From positions 1-27,473 of IMG/VR virus record IMGVR_UViG_3300034375_010945: a stretch of 27,473 nucleotides of DNA; one strand, 5' to 3'. The stretch's first letter is position 1. The number at the start of each line of letters is the position of its first letter. Positions 1,595-9,595 of the stretch are shown piece after piece. A program made the position numbers and the translations under genes. The notes under the pieces are model-generated. The model saw nothing but the letters and a program-made list of their open reading frames with translations, made no database searches and had not been told where the DNA came from. Source of the stretch: a virus.

Positions 1595-4500
1595 ATGCCA
1601 GTTCAAGTCAATGTAGCAGCCGATCAACAGAATTTAATTAATTCTATTGAGAGAGGGGTACGAGCTTATAATCAAAGATTTTCGAAGAGTAATACGATTA
1701 ATCTTAATATTAATGAGCGAGGTTTTACTCAGCCATTGGGTCGAATTACTGGTGCCGTTAATGATTTCGAATCAGCGATGGCAGCTTCTAATGCGCGTGT
1801 TATTGCTTTCGGTGCGTCTACTGCTGTGCTGGGTACTGCTATTGCTGGTTTTAGATCTTTAGCTAAAGCTAGTATTGAAGTTGAAAAGAATTTGGCAGAT
1901 GTTAATCGTATTTTACAATTAAGCACTAGTGACCTTCAGACTTTCGGAAAAGAACTATTTAATATTAGTAAAAGAACTGCTACTTCTTTTAATGATGCTT
2001 CTAAGGCTTTGCTTGAATTCTCTCGTCAAGGTTTGAGCGCAGAAGAAACTCTAAGAAGAACTAATGATGCTTTGACGTTAACTCGTCTAGCTGGTTTGGG
2101 GGCTGAAGCATCTGTTGCTGCTTTAACTGCTACAGTTAACGGTTTCGCTAAAAGTGGTATTACGACAACTCAAGTTTTAAATAAATTAGTTGCAGTTGAA
2201 CAGGCTTTTGCTGTTAGTGCGAGGGACTTATCTGAAGGTCTATCCCGTACTGGTCAAGCCGCTCAAGAAGCAGGAGTTAATATAGATCAATTAAATGCTT
2301 TAATTTCTGCAGCCCAACAGAGAACTGCTAGAGGTGGTGCTGTTATCGGTAACGCATTGAAAACAATTTTCACTCGTTTACAGCGTAGTGATACTCTCGA
2401 TAGATTAGAAGAATTTAATATTGCTGTTAGAGATGTTCAAGGTAATACTTTGCCAGCTACAACAGTTCTACAAAATTTCGCTGCAGCTTATAATAGATTA
2501 GCTGATGCTCAAAGAGCTCAATTATCAGAACAAGTCGCTGGTGTTTATCAAGTCAATATTTTAAAAGCTATTGTAAGCGATTTAAATTCAGAGCAAAGTA
2601 TTTATAACGCAGCTTTGATAAAAGGGGCCAGCGCAACAAATGAAGCTTCAAGAGCTAACGCTCAATTAAATCAAACTTTGTCTGCATTACTTGTTCAGGT
2701 CGGAAATAATACTCAGCAACTAGCTTCAACAATTGGTAGTGTTACATTTGAACCTTTAGCTAAAAGCGCGGCCAAAGCAGCTAATTCTATAGTTGAAGCT
2801 ATTACAGATGTAATTACCGGAGAAGGACTAGGGAGTGATTTGGCTAATGGTTTATTGAAAGGTATCAGAAATGTTTTAGCTGGTCCCGGCGCTATCGCTG
2901 CTTTTTATACTCTATTTAAATTAGTTCAAAGTTCTTTCACTTATGTAGCTCAAGCATTACCTCAGATAGCTGGCATAACAACCGAAACACAAAAAAGACA
3001 AAATTTAGAACAAGCCATTCTTGGCATATTGCAATCAGAAAATAATATATCTAAATCTATTTTAGGTAATACTGGAAATCAAAAAAGACAAGCAGAGATA
3101 TTATTAGGTGTAGCGAGACAGCAGACAGCTCAGTATAGAGAACAGTTAGCTTTAGCAAATAGCTTGGCTGGAACTTTAAGAAATCAAGGAGTTTCTGTCG
3201 GAGCGAGAGGCTTACAAGCTGGAAGAACAAGAAGTGGGGGTTATATTCCTGCTTCAACAAGAATGGCTGAAAGAGCTGGCGCTTTTGCTGGTGGATATGC
3301 TCCGGGTAAAGTTGTTAATTCTCCTGTCGGGGGAGTGATGAATACTGCTGAAGATATTAAGTATATGCCCGGATTTGCTCAGCCATTTATTAATCCTCCT
3401 AAAAATTCTAGAGCAGGAAGATTGCATAGAGCAAATGCGGTGAGGCAAGTCGGTGTAGATCCTTATCAATATCGAGGGTTTGTTCCTAATTTTAGCTCTT
3501 TATCTTTAGGTAGCTTATCAAAATACAAAAGATCAAAAACAGAAATAGAACAATACGCTGATGTAGAAGGATCTAATATTAATACTAGAGATACTTTAGA
3601 TTCTGGTTATGACAAAATTATTAATTTTGATGCGACAAAAGTAAAAGGTTATGGAAAATTATTAACATCATCCGCGACTGGAAAAGCAAGTAAATCTTTT
3701 GGAGATAAATTTGAAAAAGCTATTTTAAAAGCTATAAAAACTAATAACGCAGCAGCTTTTGAAGGTGGGATTAGTCAGAGTTTAAGAAAACTTCAAGCCG
3801 CTCATAATTTAAAAGGAGGGTTTAGTTCTGCTATTGATTTTATGAGTGCAGACGCTTCTATTTTAGCAGAAGCAAAAGGAGGTTTTTATGATGATGCAGC
3901 TGGAGATAAGCCCCCTAGGGCTATAGCGGAGAATTTGAGAAGAGCTGAATTCGCTAGATTGTTTACGAGTCAAGGCCCAGAATACATAGATACAGAAAAT
4001 ATTTTAATACAAAATAAAAATTTTGGTTACGGTAAAAAGCAACAAGCTCGCTTAGAAAAAAATTATGGAAATATTAACGTAGATAAGACTTATCTTGTTA
4101 AAAGAAACAAAAATTCTGGACATATTCCTAATTTTGCAGCTGGCTATAGAAATCCATTTACTGGCGCATTAAATAATGCTGCTATAGCAAGAGGTATTAG
4201 AACTGGAGCTTTAACTGAAAAACAAGCTCAAGAAATGGGATATGCTACTTCAAGCTCGAAGATAGGAGCAAGAAAAGCTAAAAGAGCTGCTGCTGTTGGA
4301 GCGTTAAATTATCAAATGGTATATGTTCCTTGGGATATCGAAGGTTTTAGAGGAGGAAGAAGTGGGGGTAGGTTAAATATCGCTCAAGGAACAGCTTATG
4401 AAAGTTTTATTTTAAATTTACTCAGAAGTGGTCAATTAAAAGGAACCACTTCATTAGGTCAATCTTTTTCTCTTCCGGCTAGGCCAGATGTTGTTTCGTC

Positions 4501-7500
4501 TGCAGCTTTAAAAGGGGGGTCAAATGCTCGTATAGATGGTTATTCTTTATCTGCTGGTGAAATGTATGAAATGAAAGCTGGCGGCACTGGTAATACTGCT
4601 TCCGGTCTTCAGGATAAATTTATCAAAGCTATAGAAAATAATCCTGAAATTCTTAATCCAAAAAGAAAATGGAAAAACTATATTTTTAGGACCACCGCTG
4701 CTAAAGGAAGAGGCGCTAGTGGTGGATTCATTCCTAATCTTGCTTATAAAGGTGAAGTCATGGATCTCGAAGAATTTATTAGCGGTCAAAAAGCTATTTA
4801 TTCTGAAACTCCATTTCCTCATGTTAGAAATGCGAGCCAACCAACATTCGCATCTGCTATCGCAGATCATGGTGGTTTAGGTAATGCTTTAAAAGATTCT
4901 TATAGAAATCAAAGTGCTGCTGGAATGGTTTATGGAGGCTACGTTCCTAATTTCGCTCCTAAGGGTACTATAACAGCTAAAGCGGCAGGTATAGACAATT
5001 TATCGGCAGCTGGAAGTGAATTGCAAAAAACTTTTTATAAATTGCAAGGAGCAATGAGGAAATTAACACAAAGCACAGATTTAAGTACTAAACAGCGAGA
5101 TATTTTGCGTCAAGACTTGAGGACTTATGCTAGAACTATTGACTCTGCAACAGGATCTACTAAAGCTTTAGATTCAGTTAATAAAGCTTTAGCGAATTCT
5201 AAAAAGAAAAATAAAGCTGCAGTAGATACAAATACATCTGCGACAAAGAAAAATACAAGTAGTGGTAGAGGTGGAGGAGGAGGTTTATTGGGATCAGGAG
5301 GAAGAACGGCTTTAGCGTTTGGTGGACCTATGATTGCTGGTTTAATAGAACAAGCAGCTTTTGGGAATAGGCAAAGAATTGATTTATCAGAAAATGAAAG
5401 AGCTGTTCAAAGTACATTGAGTACAGGTTTAACTTCTATATCAACGGGTTTTGCGATAGCGGGACCAATAGGGGCTTTAGCTGGGGCTGCTGTTGGAGCA
5501 GCTTCTGCTATAAATGCAATGTCATTAACAGCAGAAGAGTATACTCAGCTTGCTGATAAATTTAATTCTACTACACAAGAAAACGCCGCAGCAGCTAAAC
5601 AGTACATCGAGGCTCAAAAATCAATGGCATCTTCTTTGTCTGGAGAAGATTTTCAGTTAGCTTCTGATTCAGCCGCACAAGCTTTAAAAAAGATAAAAGA
5701 TGTGAATTTGCAAAAATCTTTTGAAGCCGCTGGAAATGATGTTAAAAAATTAACAGAATCTTTAAAAACTTACGAACAAACTAGACTTTCAGGCTTAAAT
5801 AGAGCTAATCAATTAGCTTTATCAAAACAAACTGGAGAAGCCAATGAGACAGGTTTTATAGCGTCTATTCTTCAGTTAGAAGAATTTTTTCCTACAACTA
5901 AAAGAAGATCTGGGGCTTTGCAAAATTTAGGTTATAGGACTGACGTTTCTGAAACAGGATCGATAACTTTAAATGAGGGTTCTAGGTCTAAGGTTTTAAG
6001 GGATTACTTTCAGCTTTTTGATGATTTAAGTGAAGTAACAGAAGGAGAATTAGATGATTTTGTTAAATTAATTGAAGAGCAGAAATCTAATAAATTTTTT
6101 GACACAGATGCTGTTGCTAGATTTTTTCAAGATGTGGCTGGTTTAGATTTTGTAGACGCTCAATCTAATGCAGATTTACTTGATATTTTAGAGGACGGAA
6201 GCAATGTTGTTGGGCAATTTATTTTTAAAAATTTTAAAAGTTTAGTTGATGATATTAAAGCCAAAGATTTTGAAGTCAATTTAGGAAAAATTCTCTCTGA
6301 AAGCAGGGGTGCTGCGGCTGACAATTTTAATAATATATTTAGGTCTATAAATGATTCATTTGACAGGATATCAAACGAAACATTAAACGTTTTAGAGCAA
6401 GCTAGATCTGATCAACAAATAAATAAAACTATACTAGATTTTACTACTTCTTTTACTGATAGTATTTCTTCTTTTGTTTCTAGCAATTTGCCAGATTTAG
6501 AAAGATATCAATTCGCTCAGTCTGCAGCTAGGCAAAAAGCAAATAATCAGTTAGCTCAATTAGCACAAGATTCAGATAATTTTGAGCAAAATCAAATAAA
6601 TCAAAGAAGGCAAGCGCTAGAAAAGAATGCAGACGAGATATCCGCTTCTTTTGAAAAGAATTTATTTCAATCTCAAGCTGTTGGTGAGATTTTTAGAGAT
6701 AGAATATTGCCGCAGTTAAAACAAGGCAATTATAATATAAATATAGATGAAATACAAAAACAGTCTCAAAAAGATGCTGTATTGGAATTTAATAAGAAAT
6801 ATTTTTCAGAATATCCTCAAGTTGGGATTTTTGGGGAAGTTAATGATGTCGGTCAATTAACGGATAATGCTTATGGTAATTTATCACAAGAAGAAGCATC
6901 GAAGAGAATCAAGAAAGAAACAGCTAGAATAGAAAAACAGTTAGAGTATTTGAATAGGGTTAAAGGTGGTGCTGAACCTTCTTATGAAGGTTCAGTTGAG
7001 ACCGCTCAAAAGCAATATGATAAATTAATTCAAAAAGCTAAAGATTTACAGGAACTTGAGAAAGCTGTAGGCTTAACACAAGAAGAAAAGTCTAAAGCTG
7101 AATTAGAATCTTTATTAAAAAGAAAACAAGACGAGCAAAAATTATTTGAAGCGTCAGCAGCGAATGCTAAAAAAGAATTTGAACTTAATAAAGCTTTATC
7201 TGAGCAAAGGATAAAAGCCGAAGAAACTTTAGCTGTTCAGAAAGCAAGAATAGATGAGAAAAATTTAGCTAGAACCAGAGCCGCCGAAATAACTTCTTCG
7301 AGATTAGGATTTGCTTCAAACATAGATCAAGCGAGAAGGAGAGAGCAAATAGCTCTTTCAGAAGATGCTATGAATGATCCGAGGGCTAATTATGGTTTAG
7401 GATTGAAAGAAATTACAGAAAGAAGAATTAAGGCTGAAGAAGATATAATTCAACAGAGAAGGGCAGCAGAAGATGCTCAATTAGATATTGAAATGAAGCA

Positions 7501-9595
7501 ATCTTATTTGAGATTAAATGCTGAAATTCAAAATACAAATGCTTTAAACGATTTAAATCAAACTGTTCTTCGGTTAATTGGAGTTCAGCTTAGTGGGGAT
7601 GCAGAAGTTAAACAAATTAAAGATTTTGTTAGCTTGCCAAATAATGTTAATGTTGATGACGAAACAATAAAAAGAACATTTGGTGATCAAGCTGCTAATA
7701 AATTCTTTGCGTTCCGTGAGGTAGAAAGTTCTCTTTCTCTTCAAACTGGTACACGTTCTTCAGCTTTAGAGGAGGCTTTGGAGAAACAAAAAGAATCCGG
7801 GGAAATAGATAAAGAAGCTTTAAGGATAGCTGCGGAAAAAGATGGTTGGAGTAAAATGGAGTTAAAAATGCTAGAAGAAGAATTGGAGAATAGAAAAGAT
7901 GTCTTAGAAATAGAAAGAAGAATTGATGATACAATAAGAGGAAGAGCTAATGCTAGAGCTAGAGAGGGAGTAGATTTAGGGGGTAATTTTAGAGCTGGTA
8001 TCGGGGCTATGAAATCAGAATCTGATGCTATATTAAATAATTTAGCTAGAGAAGCTCCTTCTAGATTTGCAGATGGAATGGCTAACGCTTTAAGTGAGGT
8101 CGCTCAAGGAACTAAAAGTTTAGGTGACGCTTTCACTGACATGGCGATTGATTTTGGTAGAATGTTGCAGCAGGAAGTTTTCAGGGCTTTAGCTCAAAGA
8201 GCTGTTGGTAGCGCACTGACGGGTTTATTTGGTACGGCAGGTAGTGCTGCTGCGGCTGCAGCCGGTAATATGCGCGGAGGCATCATTAAGGCTCAAAATG
8301 GAATGTATATTTCTGGAGGAAGAACCGGAGATAGAAATTTAGCATTATTGGAAGATGGGGAATATGTCTTAAATAGAAATGCTGTTAGAATGATGGGGGG
8401 TCCGAAAGGTTTAGATAATTTAAACTTTAACATGGCTCCTAGATTTGCTTCTGGAGGAGCATATTCACTTAGACCTGAACAGCAAAGATTAAAATCTGGA
8501 GAATTAGATTTCACTGGAAATTATATATCTAGTAATTCTGCTGGACGTATCAATGATGATATGTTCACTTCTTATGCTTTAGCTGAAGACAAATATTTTC
8601 AAGATAAGAAGCAAAAAGCAAGAGAAGCTTTAGAGAGAAGAATCCAAAAAAATTATGAGCGAAAAATGAAAAGAGCTCAATTAATTAGTTCTATTGTGGC
8701 TGCGGCTGGCAGTATAATGATGGCGTATGGAGCGTCTGGTATGGCAGCTAGTAGTGCAGCTGGGGCGCAAGGTAAAGCGGCTTTACAGGCTGGACAGATG
8801 ACTGGGGCGGATGCAGCAACACAGGCAGGTTTACAACAGGCTGCTTCAAAAAGTAATTATGCTTTTGGGCAATTTATGCAGAAAAACGCAAATAATATAT
8901 TGGTAAATAATATACCATTAAATACATTAGCTTCCAGCGTAAGTGGAACATTGTCAGAAACTGTATCAGGTTTAAGAAAAATAGGAGCTAATGATGCTTA
9001 TATAAATAATTTCTTGTCTCAAGCTTCAGCGGGTCCTGTTGGAAAAGGAGTTAGCGGCATGACTTCAATATCATCTGGTTTATCAAGTCAAGGAATTGTG
9101 GCGGCGCAAAAAGCTTCTAAAGCGGGTTTATTTTCAAGGCTATTTTCTAGTGGAGCTGGTATAGCTTCTGGAATAGGTAAAAGGCAAGTGGGTGGTATAA
9201 TAGGTTATAATTCAGGTGGATTTGTTCCTCATGGTTCTAGGTTAAGTGATACAATTCCTGCAATGCTTACTGGTGGTGAATATATCATGAATAATAAAGC
9301 TGTTAAGAAGTACGGACTGGGAACAATGAACGCTATGAATTCGGGGGCCTACCAGTCTGGGGGTATGGCTAGCAGCACAACTAATAATAATAGTACTAGC
9401 AATAATAATACTAATATATCTGTAAAAATAGATAGGGCTGGCAATTCTGTGTTTGGCGCAGATTCTAATAGCTATGAGCAAAATGATGTTATTATGTCTA
9501 AGAAGATGGCTAAGCAGATTAATTCTATTGTTTTAAGAACTATCAGTAATGAAAAAAGATACGGCGGCGAACTTTCTAAGAATGATCTAGGATGA
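1595..9595 (+). CDS. Tail tape measure protein, giant, with embedded domains
   Basis: This 2666-residue protein sets tail length and travels through the tube during infection. Residues about 60-310 match the tape-measure core of TP901-type proteins (helical, Ala-rich, with an ISKRTATSFNDASKALLEFS stretch and a TARGGAVIGNALKTIFTRLQR-like end). Residues about 545-1121 carry five copies of a G-[FYH]-[IV]-P motif and two PD-(D/E)XK-like segments (separate entries). Hydrophobic glycine/alanine-rich stretches lie near 1238-1252, 1277-1306 and 2362-2400, and a charged coiled-coil region lies near 1840-1900. Two copies of a C-terminal GGE-[YF]-[IV]-x-N module follow, then an Asn/Ser/Thr-rich linker and a conserved-looking EKRYGGEL terminus. 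At about 0.15 nm per helical residue it could span roughly 400 nm, less if the inserted domains are globular. The start has no clear Shine-Dalgarno but MPVQVNVA is a typical opening. Confidence 0.96.
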   Translation: MPVQVNVAADQQNLINSIERGVRAYNQRFSKSNTINLNINERGFTQPLGRITGAVNDFESAMAASNARVIAFGASTAVLGTAIAGFRSLAKASIEVEKNLADVNRILQLSTSDLQTFGKELFNISKRTATSFNDASKALLEFSRQGLSAEETLRRTNDALTLTRLAGLGAEASVAALTATVNGFAKSGITTTQVLNKLVAVEQAFAVSARDLSEGLSRTGQAAQEAGVNIDQLNALISAAQQRTARGGAVIGNALKTIFTRLQRSDTLDRLEEFNIAVRDVQGNTLPATTVLQNFAAAYNRLADAQRAQLSEQVAGVYQVNILKAIVSDLNSEQSIYNAALIKGASATNEASRANAQLNQTLSALLVQVGNNTQQLASTIGSVTFEPLAKSAAKAANSIVEAITDVITGEGLGSDLANGLLKGIRNVLAGPGAIAAFYTLFKLVQSSFTYVAQALPQIAGITTETQKRQNLEQAILGILQSENNISKSILGNTGNQKRQAEILLGVARQQTAQYREQLALANSLAGTLRNQGVSVGARGLQAGRTRSGGYIPASTRMAERAGAFAGGYAPGKVVNSPVGGVMNTAEDIKYMPGFAQPFINPPKNSRAGRLHRANAVRQVGVDPYQYRGFVPNFSSLSLGSLSKYKRSKTEIEQYADVEGSNINTRDTLDSGYDKIINFDATKVKGYGKLLTSSATGKASKSFGDKFEKAILKAIKTNNAAAFEGGISQSLRKLQAAHNLKGGFSSAIDFMSADASILAEAKGGFYDDAAGDKPPRAIAENLRRAEFARLFTSQGPEYIDTENILIQNKNFGYGKKQQARLEKNYGNINVDKTYLVKRNKNSGHIPNFAAGYRNPFTGALNNAAIARGIRTGALTEKQAQEMGYATSSSKIGARKAKRAAAVGALNYQMVYVPWDIEGFRGGRSGGRLNIAQGTAYESFILNLLRSGQLKGTTSLGQSFSLPARPDVVSSAALKGGSNARIDGYSLSAGEMYEMKAGGTGNTASGLQDKFIKAIENNPEILNPKRKWKNYIFRTTAAKGRGASGGFIPNLAYKGEVMDLEEFISGQKAIYSETPFPHVRNASQPTFASAIADHGGLGNALKDSYRNQSAAGMVYGGYVPNFAPKGTITAKAAGIDNLSAAGSELQKTFYKLQGAMRKLTQSTDLSTKQRDILRQDLRTYARTIDSATGSTKALDSVNKALANSKKKNKAAVDTNTSATKKNTSSGRGGGGGLLGSGGRTALAFGGPMIAGLIEQAAFGNRQRIDLSENERAVQSTLSTGLTSISTGFAIAGPIGALAGAAVGAASAINAMSLTAEEYTQLADKFNSTTQENAAAAKQYIEAQKSMASSLSGEDFQLASDSAAQALKKIKDVNLQKSFEAAGNDVKKLTESLKTYEQTRLSGLNRANQLALSKQTGEANETGFIASILQLEEFFPTTKRRSGALQNLGYRTDVSETGSITLNEGSRSKVLRDYFQLFDDLSEVTEGELDDFVKLIEEQKSNKFFDTDAVARFFQDVAGLDFVDAQSNADLLDILEDGSNVVGQFIFKNFKSLVDDIKAKDFEVNLGKILSESRGAAADNFNNIFRSINDSFDRISNETLNVLEQARSDQQINKTILDFTTSFTDSISSFVSSNLPDLERYQFAQSAARQKANNQLAQLAQDSDNFEQNQINQRRQALEKNADEISASFEKNLFQSQAVGEIFRDRILPQLKQGNYNINIDEIQKQSQKDAVLEFNKKYFSEYPQVGIFGEVNDVGQLTDNAYGNLSQEEASKRIKKETARIEKQLEYLNRVKGGAEPSYEGSVETAQKQYDKLIQKAKDLQELEKAVGLTQEEKSKAELESLLKRKQDEQKLFEASAANAKKEFELNKALSEQRIKAEETLAVQKARIDEKNLARTRAAEITSSRLGFASNIDQARRREQIALSEDAMNDPRANYGLGLKEITERRIKAEEDIIQQRRAAEDAQLDIEMKQSYLRLNAEIQNTNALNDLNQTVLRLIGVQLSGDAEVKQIKDFVSLPNNVNVDDETIKRTFGDQAANKFFAFREVESSLSLQTGTRSSALEEALEKQKESGEIDKEALRIAAEKDGWSKMELKMLEEELENRKDVLEIERRIDDTIRGRANARAREGVDLGGNFRAGIGAMKSESDAILNNLAREAPSRFADGMANALSEVAQGTKSLGDAFTDMAIDFGRMLQQEVFRALAQRAVGSALTGLFGTAGSAAAAAAGNMRGGIIKAQNGMYISGGRTGDRNLALLEDGEYVLNRNAVRMMGGPKGLDNLNFNMAPRFASGGAYSLRPEQQRLKSGELDFTGNYISSNSAGRINDDMFTSYALAEDKYFQDKKQKAREALERRIQKNYERKMKRAQLISSIVAAAGSIMMAYGASGMAASSAAGAQGKAALQAGQMTGADAATQAGLQQAASKSNYAFGQFMQKNANNILVNNIPLNTLASSVSGTLSETVSGLRKIGANDAYINNFLSQASAGPVGKGVSGMTSISSGLSSQGIVAAQKASKAGLFSRLFSSGAGIASGIGKRQVGGIIGYNSGGFVPHGSRLSDTIPAMLTGGEYIMNNKAVKKYGLGTMNAMNSGAYQSGGMASSTTNNNSTSNNNTNISVKIDRAGNSVFGADSNSYEQNDVIMSKKMAKQINSIVLRTISNEKRYGGELSKNDLG
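3701..4117 (+). other. PD-(D/E)XK nuclease-like domain 1 within the tape measure protein
   Basis: Residues about 703-841 of the tape measure protein. A G-x2-[FY]-E helix (G703 to E707) is followed 41 residues later by D748-x10-E759-x-K761 and then Gly-Gly, matching the catalytic layout of restriction-endonuclease-fold enzymes. After the core comes a helix and a final strand, then the GHIPNFA motif. The same pattern recurs in the next segment, which supports a real domain. Activity is inferred, not shown. Confidence 0.55.
4379..4720 (+). other. PD-(D/E)XK nuclease-like domain 2 within the tape measure protein
   Basis: Residues about 929-1042. G932-x2-Y-E936 is followed 45 residues later by D981-x10-E992-x-K994 and then Ala-Gly-Gly, the same signature and core spacing as domain 1. 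A likely helix and a terminal strand lead into the GGFIPNLA motif at 1043. Overall sequence outside the motif differs clearly from domain 1, so the two are either an old duplication or independently acquired members of one fold. Confidence 0.55.
8276..8460 (+). other. Tape measure C-terminal GGE/N module, copy 1
   Basis: Residues about 2228-2289: Gly-Gly start, a short glycine-rich segment, then LLEDGEYVLNRNAV and GPKGLDNLN. This resembles the module near the C-terminus of many tape measure proteins (D-x-IPA-x-L-x-x-GE-[YF]-[VI]-x-N). A second copy follows at 9191. Confidence 0.6.
9191..9360 (+). other. Tape measure C-terminal GGE/N module, copy 2
   Basis: Residues about 2533-2589: Gly-Gly start, SGGFVPHGSRLSDTIPAMLT followed by GGEYIMNNKAV and GLGTMNAMN. 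This is the fuller match to the known tape-measure module, and shares its order with copy 1 at 8276. Confidence 0.65.

Follow-up and report, generated by a model that had tools for sequence, protein, structure and literature searches.

A Siphophage Tape Measure Protein With Exchangeable, Motif-Delimited Enzyme Cassettes: A Candidate Effector Carrier

Results

Tape measure proteins (TMPs) are known as rulers and as formers of membrane channels. Here we analyze the TMP encoded in IMG/VR record IMGVR_UViG_3300034375_010945, a fragment of an uncultured virus of bacteria (positions 1 to 27,473 of the record, about 27.5 kb, hereafter the window). Two domains of this 2666-residue protein had been proposed in an earlier note, drawn up from the DNA alone, to be PD-(D/E)XK nuclease-like. 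Both turn out to be cassettes of a motif-delimited, recombining array, a wider pattern that the note had overlooked.

The open reading frame matches PhageMin_Tail in Pfam (PF10145, 1.9e-26) and tape-measure families in PHROGs (best 6.7e-42), and it shows the features of the TMP class, namely N-terminal domain homology, large size and a place before tail-tip genes. The genes 3′ of it form a lambda-like tail tip, with matches to a minor tail protein, tail assembly and J, and the phage therefore probably has a long non-contractile tail.

The first relatives kept the TMP and carried a different sequence at the position of the window's modules. Scans with the constant anchors extended the set to about 70 contigs with 62 distinct TMP sequences (L-numbers below are these relative contigs or loci). 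Anchor A1, which precedes the variable slot, has a mean column identity of 88% in the first four relatives and was found in 57 loci, and the 71-residue element that closes the slot was found in 66 viral loci, with a median ratio of nonsynonymous to synonymous substitution rates (dN/dS) of 0.11. Between the anchors, the joint motif G-[FY]-[IV]-P-N-F-A, whose P and N were demanded by the search pattern, divides the sequence into cassettes (232 distinct contexts); conservation in the joint flanks is at background within about two residues. The slot, whose size ranges from about 360 to more than 1000 residues among relatives, yields pieces falling into 36 loose clusters or, under stricter grouping, 46 families. 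The arrangement in the window is given in Table 1.

Table 1. Features of the cassette-bearing tape measure protein in the window (aa, residues of the TMP).
Feature	Position	Strand	Basis
Tape measure protein (2666 aa) that forms the chassis of the array	1595..9595	+	PF10145, PHROG TMP families, downstream gpL/I/J-like genes
Constant anchor A1 before the slot, aa 548-633 (GGYIPAS..VMNTAE..PGFAQPFINPP..GVDPY..GFVPNF)	3236..3493	+	
Joint motif 1, GFVPNFS, aa 628-634	3476..3496	+	motif consensus
Cassette 1, aa 628-841, PD-(D/E)XK-like domain, predicted catalytic E707/D748/E759/K761	3476..4117	+	
Catalytic-motif stretch of cassette 1, E707 to K761	3713..3877	+	invariant in module 1 alignment
Joint motif 2, GHIPNFA, aa 842-848	4118..4138	+	
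Cassette 2, aa 842-1043, with a small helical part at its N-terminus and a PD-(D/E)XK-like domain, predicted catalytic E936/D981/E992/K994	4118..4723	+	
Catalytic-motif stretch of cassette 2, E936 to K994	4400..4576	+	invariant in module 2 alignment
Joint motif 3, GFIPNLA, aa 1044-1050	4724..4744	+	
Constant element of 71 aa at the end of the slot (PFPHVRNASQPTFASAIADHGG), aa 1044-1114	4724..4936	+	
Joint motif 4, GYVPNFA, aa 1115-1121	4937..4957	+	
Hydrophobic segment, about aa 1282-1307, candidate membrane-inserting part	5438..5515	+	hydropathy windows aa 1282 to 1288, just 3′ of the slot

The two cassettes of the window each hold one nuclease-like module. The pattern G-x2-[FY]-E ... D-x10-E-x-K-x(0,2)-GG occurs exactly twice in the whole TMP, at residues 703-763 and 932-997, which agrees with the two motifs that the earlier note had read at 703-761 and 932-994 and with its Glu-to-Asp distances of 41 (module 1) and 45 (module 2). 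The pattern appeared in 0 of 4,000 whole-protein shuffles and in 0 of 20,000 shuffles of residues 600-1120. Since the search pattern was derived from the TMP sequence itself, conservation among homologues is the stronger test. In the module 2 alignment of 11 sequences (the window and 10 relatives, 21-86% identical to it, most 21-31%), the E/D/E/K residues are among only seven invariant columns. F-E, D, E and K are likewise invariant in the four sequences of module 1 (three relatives, 27-47% identical to the window). The note had said that variation of the acidic and lysine residues among homologues would count against nucleases; they are constant in both alignments. Both modules thus have the Asp, the (Asp/Glu)-x-Lys and the helix Glu of a PD-(D/E)XK active site. 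In an hhalign comparison, the profiles of the two modules align with one another across the catalytic core at 97%, and at 85-93% once the joint residues are taken out, the latter computed on a subset of the profiles.

Structure prediction, which the note had suggested as a check, gave the order of elements alpha-beta-beta-beta-alpha-beta in both module models, as in the PD-(D/E)XK core. The AlphaFold2 model of module 2 has a mean predicted local distance difference test score (pLDDT) of 70.9, with the nuclease core mostly at 80-91, and is made up of a helix (90-104), three strands (108-118, 141-143 and 148-153), a second helix (161-174) and a last strand (186-192). In it, E936 lies on a helix and D981 just before a strand, and the following strand has E992 and K994 on it or at its end. 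Module 1, modeled from only four sequences, reached a mean pLDDT of 55 (core 68-88). Structural neighbors were ranked by VIA alignment of Foldseek's candidates. The closest to module 2 are FAN1 VRR_NUC domains (Z 6.8, root-mean-square deviation 3.7 Å over 95 residues), followed by Hjc resolvases (Z 5.7) and, lower down, by VRR_NUC, Vsr, TnsA, NucC, CdiA-CT and restriction enzymes, nearly all rows being of the PD-(D/E)XK fold. Neighbors of module 1 are weak (Z 3.9 or less) and mostly of that fold. Among PDB sequences, the module 2 profile matched only MspI (E 0.11). The predicted order of elements is thus that of a restriction-endonuclease fold in both modules, with moderate support for module 2 and weak support for module 1, and the PD-(D/E)XK assignment, to which the conserved residues, element order and neighbors all point, can be held with moderate confidence for the former and low confidence for the latter. 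Judging from these sequence features, the two cassettes are probably catalytically competent PD-(D/E)XK-type nuclease domains.

Other PD-(D/E)XK types are found in the slots of relatives. A PD-(D/E)XK-like signature is present in 53 of 138 distinct cassettes, against a mean of 8.5 and a maximum of 17 in shuffles, and 54 of the 61 TMPs with complete slots carry at least one nuclease signature, against 14 in shuffles; given how loose the pattern is, the counts should be read as a trend and not as individual assignments. Searches of Pfam, PHROGs, NCBIfam and PADLOC with the cassettes gave few confident matches, leaving most types without a name. Those that could be named include a staphylococcal nuclease (SNase; PF00565, 29.2 bits against a gathering cut-off of 21 in L107, best E 1.9e-9), a GNAT acetyltransferase (PF00583, best 6.7e-8) and a cytidylyltransferase-related region with a HIGH-type nucleotidyltransferase (PF16581, 3.3e-8). 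Further types are recognized by motif only: ADP-ribosyltransferase (ART)-like, P-loop, HAD-like and HExxH metallopeptidase-like. In the ART-like cassette (e.g., L005, L159), R and S-x-S are invariant in the alignment and E-x-E is seen by eye in some members; it has no Pfam ART match, and the PDB profile search returned nothing relevant.

Several individual cassettes may be recorded here. The 427-residue cassette of L163:4886-6166 (-) combines a P-loop (GTAGIGKTT) with an HxGH-like nucleotidyltransferase and is probably the sole member matching PF16581 (3.3e-8). Kinase-like cassettes of the protein or HipA type occur in L107:10245-11141 (+), with weak Pfam matches only (Act-Frag_cataly, E 0.008; HipA_C, E 0.16), and, by eye, in L159:6766-7437 (-). 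A recurrent family in first position (L005:6454-7008, L017:4222-4776, L059:6789-7334, L031:1497-2030 and part of L006) has the pattern GRxFE..VG ... FADAHSGxGH ... TEIIGxGxD, different from the other conserved patterns. HExxH cassettes lie at L172:428-1411 (-), with HELFH, and L219:1512-2111 (-), with HESSH; from the motif, it is possible that they are metallopeptidases able to process the TMP, a role that has been proposed in polyvalent proteins. We discarded phrog_8809 as a similar large protein, since only the SNase part matches it and many control genomes match it as well.

It could be argued that the cassettes are enzyme-derived, inactive domains that serve as spacers, tuning tail length or tube filling. 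TMP length determines tail length in known phages, and the wide range of slot sizes would fit. Against this, the catalytic residues are the invariant ones even at 21-31% identity, SNase, GNAT and nucleotidyltransferase families remain recognizable, and nuclease signatures are strongly over-represented; we regard spacers as improbable. The earlier note had offered inactive structural modules as its own alternative, and the finding that the window domains are cassettes of a recombining array, with many enzyme types in relatives, argues against a purely structural role.

Comparison of close relatives indicates how the slot changes. In two pairs, L010/L030 and L063/L109, the backbones are 94-97% identical at the DNA level over 5-6 kb. 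For L010 and L030, identity is 94.5% over 6.4 kb as far as residue 639; beyond it the cassettes are different, and homology returns at a joint, residue 1106. L063 and L109 are 97% identical up to residue 641 and rejoin at 1483, with one shared cassette in between (987-1167, 95%) that spans from joint to joint. L005 and L017 are 90% identical upstream and 97% over 7.7 kb downstream, the difference inside the TMP amounting to 343 residues in whole cassettes. Of the 496 breakpoints in all close pairs, 457 (92%) lie no more than three residues from a joint, compared with 9.3% for random positions; the pairs are related, so the breakpoints are not independent events. In the two pairs inspected for it, L005/L017 and L063/L109, no extra or immunity gene was gained with the cassettes and the difference was confined to the TMP. 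By these computed comparisons, cassettes are exchanged whole through recombination in or beside the joints.

Such exchange at defined points, with nucleases as the commonest cassette, might also be expected of selfish, homing-like nuclease cassettes that spread into the slot, delivery being incidental. Many of the exchanged cassettes are not nucleases, however, and these recombine equally precisely, while the joints are not conserved as DNA, unlike a homing site; we consider this origin highly improbable. Even less credible, and in our opinion already contradicted, is ordinary TMP mosaicism in which the resemblance to enzyme motifs is due to chance. Sequences of TMPs often have a mosaic appearance, with genuine recent cases unconfirmed for them in one survey of protein mosaicism (PMC10684548), but breakpoint precision, invariant catalytic residues and Pfam matches above the gathering score all speak against it.

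The 204 copies of the joint use 95 distinct codon spellings, a variability which implies that selection acts on the peptide. A DNA recombination site was rejected as the main reason for joint conservation, codons varying near background with a mild GGT/CCT excess, and short shared stretches at joints may nevertheless aid exchange. We infer that the joint is under protein-level selection, either as a cleavage and release site or as a structural hinge.

Only close pairs were used for dN/dS, values with dS near or above 1 not being trusted. Between L002, which is near-identical to the window, and L003, dN/dS was 0.19 for module 2 (dS 0.52) and 0.09 for the TMP N-terminus (dS 0.94); for the GNAT cassette it was 0.06. 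As far as these estimates go, the cassettes are constrained yet evolving faster than the chassis.

A blind scan with one DNA spelling of the joint extended the distribution of the array: in 78 of the 80 matches listed, the joint falls within a reading frame of sizeable length, and nearly all frames among them have at least two joints and resemble the TMPs of this group, on contigs that reach about 194 kb in length. In 50,697 records of cultured phages, no relative was found beyond the ordinary TMP N-terminal domain, nor any match to module 1, module 2, the 71-residue constant element or another nuclease cassette. Relatives of the SNase in cultured phages are separate small genes, e.g., in Moraxella phage Mcat8 and Microcystis phage Mae-JY22, and the joint array is absent in three cultured TMPs that share the N-terminal domain (SPbeta, Stahl and CB473P1). 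In GTDB, a single contig (L130:1-3960) consists wholly of a TMP of this group, in a Proteobacteria metagenome-assembled genome. It is probably a phage fragment in the bin, and because it is possibly misbinned, no host is claimed.

Elsewhere in the window, the two genes preceding the TMP (2-580 and 501-1556) overlap by 80 bases in different frames, an arrangement like that of the lambda G/GT tail chaperones; the overlap showed no canonical slippery heptamer. Near the C-terminus of the TMP, window positions 9218-9316 (aa 2542-2574) encode GFVPHGSRLSDTIPAMLTGGEYIMN, similar to the G-F-[IV]-P of the joint. On this likeness, the joint may have come from a common TMP element.

Discussion

Computation shows the chassis, the cassettes and how they are exchanged at joints, together with conserved catalytic residues and enzyme families named by Pfam. 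From these we infer how the protein might be packaged and delivered, which activity and target its cassettes would have, and what its joints might do. With moderate confidence, we favor the reading that the TMP of these siphophages is an interchangeable effector carrier, with a slot between anchors that holds joint-delimited cassettes, nucleases dominant, delivered via the tail. The chassis would offer one variable slot between its constant anchors (aa 548-633 and 1044-1114), filled with a single independent domain or several, a joint marking the start of each. As passengers of the TMP in the tail tube, either unfolded or elongated, the cassettes would arrive in the host cell together with the DNA or just ahead of it. 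There, nuclease cassettes could work as early effectors on host or resident rival DNA, or on incoming ends, and non-nuclease cassettes could modify host proteins or nucleotides. The suggestion of the earlier note that the tail may deliver nucleases would fit this reading. A broader version, in which the TMP of widespread uncultured phages is a programmable multi-effector carrier whose joints release the enzymes after passage through the tube and which is re-armed by cassette swaps, is offered more tentatively, and we lean slightly towards doubting it.

Several observations weigh against these proposals. The slot is N-terminal to the hydrophobic segment, and that part of a TMP may not reach the cytoplasm. 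The relatives are metagenomic without exception. As to the nuclease identity, neither module of the window has a match in Pfam or PHROGs, Foldseek alone found nothing significant in the PDB for either model, and the module 1 model is of low confidence (mean pLDDT 55, best Z 3.9). A Z below 8 is no proof by itself, 6.8 being within the range for models without clear matches. Still, nearly every neighbor row listed belongs to one fold, which makes the ranking informative despite Z values below 8.

The chief rival in our assessment is that the cassettes are cut out at the joints before tail assembly and used in the producing cell as late intracellular enzymes, the chassis alone being packaged. 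Such late roles could include host DNA breakdown and exclusion of other phages. The joints, short, repeated and conserved at the protein level, are like a processing site, a few cassettes have HExxH metallopeptidase-like motifs, and folded 20-kDa domains fit poorly in a narrow tail tube. On the other hand, a free nuclease would endanger the DNA that the phage itself is replicating, the window has no identified protease gene, and an ordinary separate gene would be simpler. On balance, we judge action in the producing cell to be unlikely.

If delivery via the tail is true, tailed phages would carry an injected arsenal that acts before any gene expression, and dozens of uncharacterized effector families would be traceable through one short motif. 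A cassette TMP would also offer a natural way of loading tail tubes with cargo, and it raises the question of how folded enzymes pass through a narrow one.

Comparison With Known Systems

Built-in enzymes of TMPs such as SPbeta YomI are fixed muralytic domains for cell-wall passage. YomI, a transglycosylase in some record annotations, is likewise a TMP with an inserted enzyme domain, without a joint array. The combination of a constant delivery part with exchangeable toxin-like domains recalls polymorphic toxin systems; those, however, swap a C-terminal toxin together with an adjacent immunity gene, whereas here the cassettes are internal and no immunity gene was seen moving with them in the pairs compared. 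The TMP as carrier, the joint motif and the breakpoint pattern appear to be unreported, no report of a joint-delimited cassette TMP having been found in the literature searched, which was thin on subscription papers and preprints.

Polyvalent proteins (Iyer et al. 2017, PMC5512222) are similar in being large, multidomain and encoded with virion genes; their effectors include ART, GNAT and peptidase domains and are thought to be injected with DNA. At least two effector-type domains in one virion-gene-linked polypeptide, as in that class, are present in the window, and its relatives hold several enzyme types. The carriers described there include MuF and portal proteins as well as others of the head or interior, with the TMP unmentioned in the text; in the group of the window, the TMP takes that role, and its single slot has a recurring joint motif at which exchange occurs.

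TMP-related carriers also occur among the effectors of bacterial contractile injection systems (CIS). Tme of the Streptomyces davawensis CIS is TMP-related, has a demonstrated endonuclease domain and is loaded in a phage-tail-like injector (PMC11126660). It differs in belonging to a bacterial injector and not a phage, in having one C-terminal, EndA-like domain that is not PD-(D/E)XK, and in its DUF4157, and no joint-delimited internal array is described there. Sle1-type effectors combine a TMP-related chassis with a diverse functional domain whose swapping was shown experimentally (PMC13277306). They have a single C-terminal domain and belong to actinobacterial CIS, one member being part of a toxin-antitoxin pair, whereas the group of the window comprises environmental phages with several internal cassettes and, in the pairs that were compared, no extra gene next to the cassettes that differ. 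By analogy, Tme and the Sle1-type effectors support the principle of TMP-borne enzyme delivery, and the cassette TMP, if our interpretation is true, would be the phage counterpart to these TMP-derived effectors of bacterial injection systems (PMC11126660, PMC13277306).

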